Assembly: GCA_913061095.1 (NCBI GenBank)
Contig: CAJXVM010000004.1
Coordinates: 62,001-126,000, forward strand
Source of the DNA: an uncultured Ignavibacteria bacterium
GTDB taxonomy: Bacteria > Bacteroidota > Ignavibacteria > SZUA-365
DNA: 64,000 nt
Direction: 5' to 3'
The first letter of the stretch is position 1. Every line of letters begins with the position of its first letter. A program made the position numbers and the translations under genes. Under the pieces are notes generated by a model. It was not told where the DNA came from. It was given only the letters and a program-made list of their open reading frames with translations, and ran no database searches. Of this stretch, positions 36 through 27,486 are shown one piece after another.

Positions 36-191
36 GATTAGGACAGATTGCACAGAGAGTCATATCACAGATTTTCGCAGAGTACACGCAGATTTCCACA
101 GATTGCTTTTTCGAAATTATCAATCTGTGCAAATCTGTGCACGAATCTGCGTGAGTCTGTGATATGATTCTCTGTGAAATCTGCCCTAATC
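36..191. repeat. Large imperfect inverted repeat built of ATCTGTG-like units
   Basis: Two arms (about 36-106 and 121-191) pair around a short AT-rich loop. For example AGAGAGTCATATCACAGA (left) is the reverse complement of TCTGTGATATGATTCTCT (right) with one mismatch, and ATTAGGACAGATT pairs with AATCTGCCCTAAT. Each arm is itself made of degenerate AATCTGTG units spaced about 10 nt. The right arm overlaps the stop codon of the minus-strand thioredoxin gene, so the RNA hairpin could protect or terminate that transcript. No gene was seen in 1-185. Confidence 0.75.
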
Positions 192-2636: not shown

Positions 2637-2655
2637 CCCCACGTGTGAGCGTGGG
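2637..2655. repeat. CCCCACG...CGTGGG palindromic element abutting a stop codon
   Basis: CCCCACGTGTGAGCGTGGG directly follows the TAG of the endonuclease-like gene. It is a variant of the CCCCACGCGTGAGCGTGGGG palindrome found inside lepB and aceF and after aceF. Confidence 0.8.
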
Positions 2656-2657
2656 AT

Positions 2658-2680: not shown

Positions 2681-2738
2681 ACCGTCACCCCGAGTTTGGA
2701 TGGGCGCTGGGCGCTCATACGGATGATATCGATTGTTT

Positions 2739-2871
2739 TCGCCCTGAAAGGGCGATACGATTCAGCCCCGGGCAACGCCCGGGGTCGAGGAGGACGCACA
2801 TATATACCCTCGTGCCCTGAAGGGGCACGATCGAGTGGTCCCTTCCGGTTCCGCCCTTTCAGGGCGCTTCC
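2739..2871. repeat. Composite multi-hairpin dispersed element, copy A
   Basis: About 133 nt. It begins TCGCCCTGAAAGGGCGA, carries an inner CCCCGGGCAACGCCCGGGG hairpin and a GTGCCCTGAAGGGGCAC hairpin, and ends CGCCCTTTCAGGGCG-CTTCC, so its two ends are inverted copies of GCCCTGAAAGGGCG. A second full copy lies at 25691-25824 and a right-end fragment at 7092-7112. The size and terminal inverted repeats resemble a MITE or BIME-like element. It carries no convincing gene. Confidence 0.85.
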
Positions 2872-11825: not shown

Positions 11826-12821
11826 TCAGTGCACGACGCTGAAGATGCGGTCCCAGCGGATGGATTCAACGAGCGCGATCGGACTGGTCACCGGGATGCG
11901 TGAATCCCACGACCAGTAAATGAACATCGCCTTGCCGACGATGTTCTGCTCGGGCACGAAGCCCCAGTAGCGGCTGTCCTCGCTGTCGTCGCGCTGGTCG
12001 CCGAGCATGAAATAGTAGTCGTTCTCCACGGTGTAGATATTGTCGGGATAGCCGTCCACCTGCACCGTGCCCTCCGCGGTGAAGCGCACCGCGTGCCCCT
12101 CGCGCTCGATGAACAGCCGCCACTGGTCGATGTTCTCCAGCCCGAGCTCGATCTCCATGCCTTCGTACGGCACGACCATCGGACCCCACCAGTCGCGGTT
12201 GTATCCCGATCCCTTGGGATAGATGTCGTGATCGAAATCCCCGCGTCCCAGTGTGCGCGATCCGATGACGGCGTGTTCGGGATAGCCCTGCCGCTCGCCG
12301 TTGACGAACACGCGCTTGCCGGCGATCTCCACGGTGTCGCCGGGCAGCGCGATGCAGCGCTTGACGTAGTTGAGCACGTTCGGCTGCTCGACGGTGCTGC
12401 GGTCGCCGGGATATTCGAACACGATCACGTCGCCGCGGTTCGGGGATGTGTACCCGGGGAGGATTTTCATGTGCGGCAGGCGGATGCCGGTCAGCGGCAC
12501 GGCCCGCGGCGTGCGGATGCCGTAGAGGAATTTGTTGACAAAGAGGAAGTCGCCGACTTTCAGCGTGTTGCGCATCGACGGCGTGGGGATGCCGAAGGCC
12601 TCGACGAAAAAAACTTTCAGGAACAGCGCGATGAACAGCGCGTAGAGAACGATGCGGCCGTATTCGGAGAGGAAGCTTTTGGAGGGGGCGTCGTCATCCC
12701 CACGCTCACGCGTGGGGCTATCGTGCTCCACATCATTCTGAGGTGCGGAATCGGAGTTGGGGGAGGCTGCGTCATCCCCACGCTCATGCGTGGGGCTATC
12801 GTGCTCGTGATCCGTTGCCAT
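11826..12821 (-). CDS. lepB: Signal peptidase I with repeat-derived N-terminal extension
   Basis: 331 residues. Residues 1-50 are a charged extension carrying two copies of a repeat-encoded peptide (DSPTHERGDD at about 8-17 and DSPTRERGDD at about 34-43). One transmembrane helix follows (about 55-72), then the S26 catalytic domain: Ser82 in PTPSMRNT and Lys155 in NYVKRCIALPGD, the usual Ser/Lys dyad, and the conserved YFMLGDQRDDSEDSRYWG box. It cleaves signal peptides of exported proteins at the outer face of the inner membrane. The extension is cytoplasmic by topology. It starts 1 nt after the stop of the second lepB. Confidence 0.93.
   Translation of the reverse strand: MATDHEHDSPTHERGDDAASPNSDSAPQNDVEHDSPTRERGDDDAPSKSFLSEYGRIVLYALFIALFLKVFFVEAFGIPTPSMRNTLKVGDFLFVNKFLYGIRTPRAVPLTGIRLPHMKILPGYTSPNRGDVIVFEYPGDRSTVEQPNVLNYVKRCIALPGDTVEIAGKRVFVNGERQGYPEHAVIGSRTLGRGDFDHDIYPKGSGYNRDWWGPMVVPYEGMEIELGLENIDQWRLFIEREGHAVRFTAEGTVQVDGYPDNIYTVENDYYFMLGDQRDDSEDSRYWGFVPEQNIVGKAMFIYWSWDSRIPVTSPIALVESIRWDRIFSVVH
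12698..12795. repeat. Two in-frame copies of the palindromic element inside lepB
   Basis: CCCCACGCTCACGCGTGGGG at 12698-12717 and CCCCACGCTCATGCGTGGGG at 12776-12795. Flanks are shared too (GTCAT before, GCTATCGTGCTC after), so the repeated unit is about 36 nt. On the coding strand both are read as HDSPT(H/R)ERGDD. The spacer between copies encodes AASPNSDSAPQNDVE. Confidence 0.9.
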
Positions 12822-12822
12822 G

Positions 12823-13680
12823 TCAGTTGATGATGGTGAACATGCGGTCGAAGCGGATTTTCTTGAAGAGGTTGTTGAGCGTCGGATCCATGGACCAGTA
12901 CACCATCATGGGCGTGCCGACGACTTCCTCCTCGGGAATGAAGCCCCAGAAACGGCTGTCAAGCGAGTCGTCGCGATTGTCGCCCATGCCGAACACGTAA
13001 TCGCGCTCCACGGTGTAGCTGTCCGCGGGCACGCCGTCGATGAGCACCTGTCCGCCGCGCATCGCAACGTCGTGTCCCTCGCGGCGAATGAAAATCGCCC
13101 ACTCGCGGATGTTCTCGCCATTCAGTTCGATGACATCGCCCTCGGCGGGAACCACGAGCGGACCGTACTGATCACGGTTCCACGGTTTGTCCGGCGGAAA
13201 GATCTGCGGGTCGGCCACGTCGGCGCTCAGCGTCTCCCTGAAGTAGTGCACGCCTTCGGGATCCTCGAATTTCTCGCCATTGATGTACAGCTGCTTGTCA
13301 ATGATGCGCACCGTGTCGCCCGCCGTCGCCACGCATCTCTTCAAATAGTATTGAAAGCCGTCGCGGGGCTCGAGGCGGTCGCGCTCGCCGGGAAAGATGA
13401 ACACGATCACGTCGCCCTTCTCGGGATCGCGGAAGCCCGGCGTGCGCGTGTACGGCAGCTCGATCTCCGTGCCGAAGAAAATCCCGATCAGCGGGATGGT
13501 CGGTGGCGTGGTGCCGCCGTAAATGAACTTGTTGACAAACAGGAAATCACCGGCCATCACCGTGTTCTCCATCGAACCCGTCGGTACCTGGAAGGATGCG
13601 AGCACGAAGCTGTTGAGAATGATCACGGCCACGAGCGCGAAACCGAGGGATTTCAGCGTTTCCTTGATGCTCTTTTTCAT
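12823..13680 (-). CDS. lepB: Signal peptidase I, second copy
   Basis: 285 residues, with one N-terminal transmembrane helix (about 11-30). The catalytic dyad is Ser36 (VPTGSMENT) and Lys114 (YLKRCVATAGD), and the GMGDNRDDSLDSRFWGF box is present. Clearly paralogous to the adjacent gene but without the repeat-derived extension, so the extension is an addition to one copy and not ancestral. Substrate division between the two copies cannot be told from sequence. The gene sits between lepA and the other lepB; 182 bp of spacer upstream contain a GC-rich stem (CACGG...CCGTG around 13765-13790) that could end the lepA transcript. Confidence 0.93.
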   Translation of the reverse strand: MKKSIKETLKSLGFALVAVIILNSFVLASFQVPTGSMENTVMAGDFLFVNKFIYGGTTPPTIPLIGIFFGTEIELPYTRTPGFRDPEKGDVIVFIFPGERDRLEPRDGFQYYLKRCVATAGDTVRIIDKQLYINGEKFEDPEGVHYFRETLSADVADPQIFPPDKPWNRDQYGPLVVPAEGDVIELNGENIREWAIFIRREGHDVAMRGGQVLIDGVPADSYTVERDYVFGMGDNRDDSLDSRFWGFIPEEEVVGTPMMVYWSMDPTLNNLFKKIRFDRMFTIIN

Positions 13681-24300: not shown

Positions 24301-25647
24301 ATGGCTACCGAAGTCAAACTGCCCGAACTGGGCGAAAACATCACCGAAGGCGACGTGGTCAAAATCCACGTATCCCCGGGCGACACCGTCGAAGTCGATC
24401 AGCCTCTCATGGAGCTGGAGACCGACAAGGCTTCCTTCGACGTTCCCTCCGAAGTCGCCGGCACCGTCAAGGAAATCAAAGTAGAAGAGGGCGGCAAGGC
24501 CGAAGTCGGCTCCGTCATCATGATCATTGACGCGGACGAGCAGGAGCAGGATAGCCCCGCGCGTGAGCGTGGGGAAGAGGAACCGAAGAAGGAAGAGGGA
24601 AGCGCTGGCCCCACGCGTGAGCGTGGGGATGAGGAGGAACCGAAGAAGGAAGAGGGAAGCGCTGGCCCCACGCGTGAGCGTGGGGATGAGGCCGCCACCA
24701 CATCCGACTCAATCCCCCCCGCCCCCGGTCCCGCGCAGGGCGTCCCCGTTCCCGCCGCGCCGTCGGTGCGCATGTTTGCGCGCGAGCTCGGCGTGGATAT
24801 CACGAAAGTGAAGGGGAGCGGTCCGGCCGGACGCATTTCCGACGACGACGTCAAGCGCTTTGCCAAGTCGCTGATCACCGGCGCCGCCGCGAAGGGCGCG
24901 GCACCGGGTGCGCCGATGCGTCCCGACCTGCCCGATTTTTCCGTCTACGGGGAAGTCGAAGTCGAGGAGATGAGCAAGGTCCGCCGCATGACCGCCGATC
25001 AGATGGAGGTTTCGTGGTCCATTCCCGTCGTCACCCAGCACGACCGTTCCGATGTCACGCATCTCGAGGAGCTGCGCAGCGCCTGGTCGAAGCGCGCGGA
25101 GAAGGCGGGCACGAAGCTCACCGTCACCGCCATCGCACTCAAGGTGGCCGCGGCCGCGCTGAAGAAATTCCCGCAGTTCAACGCCTCGATTGACATGCGC
25201 ACGCATGAGATCATTTACAAGAAGTACGTTCACCTCGGCGTCGCGGTGGATACCGACCGCGGACTGCTGGTGCCCGTCATCCGTGACGTGGACAAAAAGA
25301 ACATCATCGACATTTCCCTCGAGCTGCAGGAGCTGGCGGAGAAGGCGCGCTCGAAAAAGATCAAGCCCGACGAGATGCAGGGCGCGACATTCACCATCAC
25401 CAATCTCGGCGGCATCGGCGGAACCTCGTTCACGCCGATCATCAACTCGCCCGAAGTCGCTATCCTGGGCATGTCGCGCAGCACGACCGAACCGGTCTGG
25501 CAGGACGGCGAATTCCAGCCGCGACTCATGCTGCCGCTGTCGCTGACCTACGACCACCGCATCATCGACGGCGCCGACGCCGCCCGCTTCCTCCGCTGGA
25601 TCGCCGAGGCCCTCGAAGAGCCGCTGCTGATGGCATTGGAGGGCTAG
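24301..25647 (+). CDS. aceF: Dihydrolipoyl acetyltransferase (pyruvate dehydrogenase E2) with repeat-expanded linker
   Basis: 448 residues. The lipoyl domain (1-78) has the lipoylated Lys43 in ETDKASF. The linker (about 79-150) contains three copies of the repeat-encoded peptide SP(A/T)RERG(D/E), two of them inside a 19-residue tandem duplication (EEPKKEEGSAGPTRERGDE). The E3/E1-binding domain lies at about 152-190 (APSVRMFARELGVDITKVKGSGPAGRISDDDVKRF). The catalytic domain (about 215-448) has His419 and Asp423 in YDHRIIDGAD. It transfers acetyl to CoA as the core of the complex. E2 linkers tolerate length change, which may explain why the insertions persist. The TAG stop abuts another copy of the palindrome. 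Confidence 0.96.
   Translation: MATEVKLPELGENITEGDVVKIHVSPGDTVEVDQPLMELETDKASFDVPSEVAGTVKEIKVEEGGKAEVGSVIMIIDADEQEQDSPARERGEEEPKKEEGSAGPTRERGDEEEPKKEEGSAGPTRERGDEAATTSDSIPPAPGPAQGVPVPAAPSVRMFARELGVDITKVKGSGPAGRISDDDVKRFAKSLITGAAAKGAAPGAPMRPDLPDFSVYGEVEVEEMSKVRRMTADQMEVSWSIPVVTQHDRSDVTHLEELRSAWSKRAEKAGTKLTVTAIALKVAAAALKKFPQFNASIDMRTHEIIYKKYVHLGVAVDTDRGLLVPVIRDVDKKNIIDISLELQELAEKARSKKIKPDEMQGATFTITNLGGIGGTSFTPIINSPEVAILGMSRSTTEPVWQDGEFQPRLMLPLSLTYDHRIIDGADAARFLRWIAEALEEPLLMALEG
24555..24685. repeat. Three in-frame palindromic elements and a 57-nt tandem duplication inside aceF
   Basis: Palindromes at 24555-24574 (CCCCGCGCGTGAGCGTGGGG), 24609-24628 and 24666-24685 (both CCCCACGCGTGAGCGTGGGG). 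The last two are exactly 57 nt apart, in a tandem duplication of the segment starting near 24580. All three are in the same reading frame, giving SPARERG, GPTRERG and GPTRERG. Confidence 0.95.
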
Positions 25648-25667
25648 CCCCATGCGTGAGCGTGGGG
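25648..25667. repeat. Palindromic element abutting the aceF stop codon
   Basis: CCCCATGCGTGAGCGTGGGG directly follows the aceF TAG (25645-25647), the same arrangement as at 2634-2655. It lies 24 nt upstream of the composite element. Confidence 0.9.
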
Positions 25668-25690
25668 ATGCGACGTATCAATACACGTCT

Positions 25691-25824
25691 TCGCCCTGAA
25701 AGGGCGACATGTCACAGCCCCGGGCAACGCCCGCGGTATGGGACGCGCTCCCACATATCTCCAGTGCCCTGAAAGGGCACAATAACGTGGTCGCCTTTTG
25801 TTCCGCCCCTTTCAGGGCGCTTCC
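25691..25824. repeat. Composite multi-hairpin dispersed element, copy B
   Basis: 134 nt, collinear with 2739-2871: TCGCCCTGAAAGGGCGA at the left, CCCCGGGCAACGCCCGCGG in the middle, GTGCCCTGAAAGGGCAC, then CGCCCCTTTCAGGGCG-CTTCC at the right. The stems are conserved while the loops and connecting bases differ, as expected if the hairpins matter. It lies between aceF and lpd, inside the PDH operon. Confidence 0.88.
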
Positions 25825-27353: not shown

Positions 27354-27463
27354 CAATTATACCCGGGTAAAACCTCAATTTTACCCGGGTAAAACCGTAT
27401 TTGTACCTGGGTAAAACCGTATTTGTACCCGGGTAAAACCGTATTTGTACCCGGGTATAATTG
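27354..27463. repeat. 22-nt-period array of TACCCGGGTA palindromes with inverted ends
   Basis: Units start at 27360, 27382, 27404, 27426 and 27448 (partial). Each begins with the 10-bp palindrome TACCCGGGTA (TACCTGGGTA in unit 3) followed by AAACCGTATTTG or, in unit 1, AAACCTCAATTT. The outer flanks mirror each other: CAATTATACCCGGG on the left is the exact reverse complement of CCCGGGTATAATTG on the right. It lies between the convergent lpd and NO reductase genes. The rest of the 302-bp spacer holds two hairpins (27487-27506 and 27515-27544) and no gene. Confidence 0.95.
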
Positions 27464-27486
27464 TTTTCTGTAACTTTTTAACAGAA

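Follow-up and report, generated by a model that had tools for sequence, protein, structure and literature searches.

The locus raises the question of how one 20-bp palindrome comes to be read in frame within two protein-coding genes and also to stand directly behind the stop codons of two genes. We searched the window, which is the whole stretch of 64,000 nucleotides analysed here, for the palindrome at up to 3 mismatches. Seven matches were found, compared with 0.01 expected in shuffles, which bore out the seven places reported in a first-pass annotation; its view of the repeat as a palindrome of REP type, inserted and mobile-like, was also correct. Five of the seven copies were read in frame as SP(T/A)(R/H)ERG or GPTRERG in aceF and lepB, and two began directly after a TAG stop (aceF and the gene at 705-2636). 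The genes and copies concerned are as follows.

705-2636: gene encoding Exo_endo_phos with a T9SS tail (given as 894-2636 in the first-pass annotation)
2637..2656, plus strand: REP copy directly 3' of the TAG of gene 705-2636, with a GTAG foot at 2633-2636
11826..12821, minus strand: lepB (peptidase S26, domain from residue 52), with the repeats in the N-terminal tail, residues 8-42
12698..12717, minus strand: REP copy in frame in lepB, read ...EHDSPTRERGDD
12776..12795, minus strand: REP copy in frame in lepB, close to the N-terminus, read ...EHDSPTHERGDD
24301..25647, plus strand: aceF (E2), with lipoyl domain 4-76, E3-binding domain 150-185 and catalytic domain 218-445
24555..24574, plus strand: REP copy 1 of the aceF linker, read QDSPARERGEE
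24609..24628, plus strand: REP copy 2 of the aceF linker, read AGPTRERGDE, a unit of a 57-bp tandem duplication
24666..24685, plus strand: REP copy 3 of the aceF linker, read AGPTRERGDE, the second unit of the 57-bp tandem duplication
25648..25667, plus strand: REP copy directly 3' of the aceF TAG, the AceF C-terminus being placed as in relatives without the repeat

The AceF repeats correspond to residues 84-131, after the lipoyl domain and before the E3-binding domain. Copies 2 and 3 lie within the tandem duplication, whose units are 98% identical, so aceF holds at most two independent insertions. The two host genes had been called essential, which is not established for either; lepB has an adjacent paralogue at 12823-13680. 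An alignment of orthologues revealed that SPTRERGD was absent from AceF and LepB in relatives, in which the AceF linkers and LepB tails carried other sequences, variable in length, at the repeat sites. These results indicate that the peptide arose by insertion into disordered, variable segments, and the possibility of shared descent, against which the first-pass annotation had set its insertion reading, fails. In another genome (G004), the LepB N-tail (L115) held another GTAG palindrome, GTAGGGGCGAGATTCATCTCGCCC, twice in frame. This palindrome is read as DVGARFISPD and is present in 26 copies in G004 and 10 copies in the genome of the window (≤2 mismatches), which shows that different repeat families colonise one tolerant segment. 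In G006 and G009 (L099, L103), the AceF linkers contained an 8-bp-stem palindrome, CCTGGGAC-GTGA-GTCCCAGG, with the loop and the R-E frame of the REP, and a second palindrome, CCCGGGGC-GTGA-GCCCCGGG, was present in the AceF linker of G009 only. We rejected these as REPs with another stem, CCTGGGACGTGAGTCCCAGG occurring once per genome; GAGGGGCGGCCTTCGC, upstream of CCTGGGACGTGAGTCCCAGG, showed no enrichment over control.

The genome from which the window derives (G000; 4.61 Mb, 42 contigs) contained 234 palindrome copies at ≤3 mismatches, compared with 1 for the reversed-pattern control. Positions were read in a 1.42-Mb sample that comprised contigs C2, C4, C5 and C6 in full, together with regions surrounding additional copies; as these regions were chosen for holding copies, copy density is biased, with no obvious bias in position or frame. 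Genes were called with a simple codon-model caller, covered 91% of the sample and reproduced those of the window. The results showed that 188 of 207 sampled copies lay outside predicted genes, and 142 of these 188 touched a gene 3' end or lay ≤300 nt from one. The repeat is thus not confined to protein linkers and gene ends, for which its insertion had been thought to be fitted.

Inside genes, 12 sampled copies fell in six plausible genes and in three different frames, including antisense, and seven further apparent cases were probably ORF-calling artefacts. The SPTRERG frame was used in aceF (3 copies) and lepB (2 copies), and the APRVSVG frame in an AraC-type regulator, with the copy in the segment N-terminal to the HTH domain. 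The antisense PTLTRG frame was used in three genes: a polysaccharide-export-like SLBB protein (named from sequence) in which four tandem copies precede a signal-peptide-like stretch, a second gene that has a single copy at the N-terminus, and a third whose copy is close to the C-terminus. Sense frame 0 holds TAG and TGA, which leaves five of the six frames readable. The reading frame, described earlier as always the same, was indeed constant within the window, which is a small-sample effect, and varied in the genome sample; genic copies use several frames, and the element is not adapted in its coding frame. That SPTRERGD is a functional peptide motif kept in AceF and LepB, as the five in-frame copies in two window genes could suggest, is scarcely credible against its lack in the orthologues, the use of other frames in other genes, and the different REP in the LepB tail of G004. 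Peptides of the SPTRERGD type in AceF, LepB and comparable linkers come from the repeat, and it would be a mistake to interpret them as functional motifs.

The REP hairpin consists of an 8-bp stem and a GTNA tetraloop (GTGA, GTAA or GTCA), the loop always lying on the same strand as a 5' foot with the consensus GCGSTAR. Among 39 singletons, the foot had A at -2 in 38, T at -3 in 31 and G at -7 in 29. Among the 207 sampled copies, TAR was present in 162, GTAR in 100 and exact GTAG in 40. The conserved left flank described earlier, TAGCCCC, is the REP foot plus the first stem bases; it was correctly seen to be capable of acting as a stop codon or of being read as D-S, and TAG does precede the stop-abutting copies, but not aceF copies 2 and 3, which have CTGG there. 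Paired changes that keep the stem occurred in 19 of the 29 listed two-mismatch copies (for example CCACAC..GTGTGG, CCGCAC..GTGCGG, CCCCACCC..GGGTGGGG, CCACACGC/GCGTGTGG and CCGCACGC/GCGTGCGG), indicating selection or copying via the folded hairpin. As RNA, the hairpin folded at -14 to -19 kcal/mol (z -2.2 to -4.5). The sample contained 82 clusters, 39 of them the singletons. Many arrays had alternating inverted copies about 42-50 bp apart, BIME-like, and others ran head-to-tail. Head-to-tail arrays of identical copies were observed at C25:30093-30436 (ten at 36 nt) and C31:26746-27065 (seven at 50 nt), and the latter begins directly 3' of the parB stop.

In the same-genus genomes the family was absent, with 0-1 chance matches each; a comparison of five same-genus genomes showed it to be private to one species. 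A generic hairpin pattern, which allowed other stems but was poorly designed in requiring T after the stem, gave only chance-level matches outside the genome of the window. The compensated stem CCCCACACGTGAGTGTGGGG was present in a same-family genome. GC-rich hairpins 3' of genes could also be expected of a family of intrinsic terminators or operators rather than REPs, a reading that we regard as very improbable: no T-run followed the hairpins in the listed contexts, copies also lay inside genes and in arrays, and no Rfam family matched in window 1-30000. The reading that we favour, at a probability of about 0.8, is that of a lineage-specific REP family, most likely spread by a Y1 (HUH) transposase that reads hairpin and foot. 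The folded single-stranded hairpin and its GCGSTAR foot would be recognised by this enzyme and copied round the genome, and the copies would settle beside a TAR motif. A natural TAA or TAG stop would offer this motif at the only site within a gene where an insertion just 3' does no harm, so that many copies would begin directly after unaltered protein ends. Intragenic copies would survive only with an open frame and in a disordered protein segment, such as the AceF linker, the LepB N-tail, the linker of the AraC-type regulator, and N- or C-terminal ends, which would make SPTRERGD a tolerated by-product and not a designed peptide.

Clusters located up to 100 bp 3' of a gene were counted by orientation. 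Among the same-orientation clusters, 13 of 37 started at distance 0 from the stop, whereas none of the opposite-orientation clusters within 100 bp 3' of genes did so, and there were 25 same-orientation cases with a start 0-20 nt after the stop. The stops at distance 0 were TAR (TAA or TAG) in 12 of 13 cases, compared with 41% of all stops in the sample, in which TGA makes up 59%. The excess at stop codons for which the first-pass annotation had proposed a genome-wide tabulation is therefore present. Binomial p-values for distance 0 overstate the effect, since distance 0 also results when a copy inserts in frame close to the end of a gene, and the argument rests instead on ancestral C-termini.

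AceF ended in ...PLLMALEG in the genome of the window and in most family relatives with ends read, with the variants ...LLLALEG and ...PLLMVL in other relatives, and the relatives had TAA, TGA or TAG at this point without the repeat. GlnS of the genome of the window ended at the length seen in G001, G002 and G003, and ParB ended in ...ELLLK-stop in both the genome of the window and G001. The repeat was likewise absent at the ends of the relatives' glnS and parB, the stops of relatives across the three genes being TAA, TAG or TGA, and the bases 5' of the hairpins aligned with host sequence, for example in parB (CTGAAATAA vs CTGAAGTAA). Several other stop-abutted proteins had typical C-termini, such as T9SS tails. 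These results indicate that the ancestral end is retained in AceF, GlnS and ParB, so that the hairpin abuts a natural end and the gene is not truncated; for these three genes, this is ancestral-state evidence that the stop position is older than the hairpin.

Two accounts of the stop codon can be set against this evidence. In one, the foot is an integral part of the element, which carries in a stop codon of its own, so that insertion redefines the ends of adjoining genes. GCGSTAR is kept at non-genic copies as well, and the wording of Di Nocera et al. for GTAG REPs (PMC3733652) points the same way; we nevertheless consider this account doubtful, as AceF, GlnS and ParB end where their relatives end, the bases upstream, as in parB, align with host DNA, and most other C-termini look canonical. 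In the other, which we hold as a tentative possibility, the REP mover targets natural stops, TAA or TAG within NTAR, and lays the hairpin just after them, leaving the protein unchanged. If stops are the target, the published statement that the REP provides the TAG stop would reverse the real order of events. In a flank comparison, stop-abutting copies matched GCGSTAR as well as the others did (p=0.43), and the GCG kept upstream of TAR raises the possibility that the foot moves together with the element. With the ancestral ends of the three genes in hand, whether REPs bring stops or land on them becomes testable.

A hairpin transcribed behind a stop codon may stabilise the mRNA or slow termination, and it is conceivable, though unlikely, that selection retains the hairpins at gene ends for a role as RNA, either 3'-end protection or slower translation termination. 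Their position would then follow from function rather than from a preference of insertion. The 25 same-orientation starts within 0-20 nt of the stop, the strand-specific loop (of which GTGA and GTAA are GNRA as RNA) and the strong RNA folds agree with such a role, and in E. coli, REPs within 15 nt of the stop are reported to lower translation (PMC12306157). Against this, many copies are found away from gene ends and in long arrays that include either orientation; their absence from same-genus orthologues means that no conserved need is visible, and single-strand transposition would also give the strand asymmetry of the hairpin.

Returning to spread by a Y1 transposase, we searched the genome of the window with profile PF01797 and found three Y1 transposase genes. 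One of them, C16:102169-102624, had family copies at up to about 150 nt on either side and, further out, an array. Its product scored 67.7 bits with NF033573 IS200 (cut-off 55) and 21.8 with NF047646 (cut-off 80), and was accordingly rejected as a REP-associated tyrosine transposase. The only true RAYT, at C5:172540, scored 99.6 bits, and no copy of this REP family was present nearby. About 1% of genes have REP copies on both sides, so that one flanked gene among three is suggestive and modest evidence, not proof. Judged from these sequences, a Y1 (HUH) transposase is the likely mover of the family. The evidence does not support a RAYT REPtron, the only flanked transposase being of the IS200 class and the RAYT having no copy of this family nearby. 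The inverted pairs, the arrays and a Y1 gene flanked by copies do recall REPINs/BIMEs with RAYT (REPtrons), which differ in that here the flanked gene scores as IS200/IS605 TnpA.

IS200/IS605 ends are recognised as single-stranded hairpins with a foot tetranucleotide, and insertion takes place beside a short target motif (PMC8266576). The present family would resemble such ends (IS608, ISDra2) in all three respects; unlike them, the REP is non-autonomous and has no defined left/right end pair here. In TnpA-REP recognition, the tetranucleotide is required for cleavage and its positions 3 and 4 are most critical in one system (PMC8266576), which the near-invariant A at -2 fits.

The family has the features of the REP class: a stem-loop palindrome in 234 copies, mainly extragenic and often near gene 3' ends. 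The first-pass annotation could not name the sequence or its use, which was incorrect. The element is a REP with a foot similar to GTAG, and Di Nocera et al. (2013; PMC3733652) had already described such behaviour in GTAG REPs: their termini often give the TAG stop of flanking ORFs, and they lie inside ORFs in several species. According to the same source, the foot tetranucleotide GTAG is conserved in that super-family, at over 90% in most families, and some families are degenerate too, at positions other than here. Set beside this description, our family shares the short perfect palindrome, the one-sided unpaired TAG-containing foot, the high copy number, the dimers and arrays, the location mostly downstream of ORFs, TAR stops at distance 0 (12 cases) and copies inside ORFs. 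It differs in its more degenerate NTAR foot (GTAG 40/207, GTAR 100/207), in the conserved GCG upstream of the foot and in the GTNA tetraloop. Set against the general description of GTAG REPs in that source, which comprise 24 families, it is probably a new lineage-specific REP family with a degenerate NTAR foot; we filed it as REP and not firmly within the GTAG super-family because it departs from the strict GTAG tag. The Rickettsia palindromic elements (RPE), compared by behaviour only, are similar in being read in frame within protein genes and differ in that intragenic copies here are a small minority; RPE-4 and RPE-6 belong with the CGTC repeats, and RPE-1 forms a palindrome of greater length (PMC3733652). 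The phenomenon, though unusual, is already published, and what is added here is the family anatomy, the private distribution and the ancestral-state evidence at gene ends. REP stop-codon abutment and in-frame tolerance in disordered segments are thereby demonstrated in a lineage that is uncultured and related to Bacteroidetes genomes.

Other repeats were observed beside the REP copies. Hexamer-like GAGCA(C/G)GA repeats adjoined seven sampled copies, including those at window 12700-12815, C37:7289-7400 and C19:17235; in sense they read EHEHD or EQEQD (lepB, aceF), and in antisense VLVLLLVLP, forming the signal-peptide-like stretch of the C37 gene. A second palindromic composite (CGCCCTGAAAGGGCG ... 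CCCCGGGCAACGCCCGGGG) was located at window 2735-2785 and 25687-25737 (86% identical), about 20-100 bp 3' of both stop-abutting window copies, with a related CGCCCTTTCAGGGCGCTTCC piece at 2852, 7093 and 25805. Window 27354-27466 held an array of 22-nt units, TTTTACCCGGGTAAAACCGTAT, each palindromic, and this motif also adjoined a REP at C2:326325. Finally, a 46-nt inverted repeat (87% complementary, spacing 64 nt) was found at window 36-81 and 146-191.
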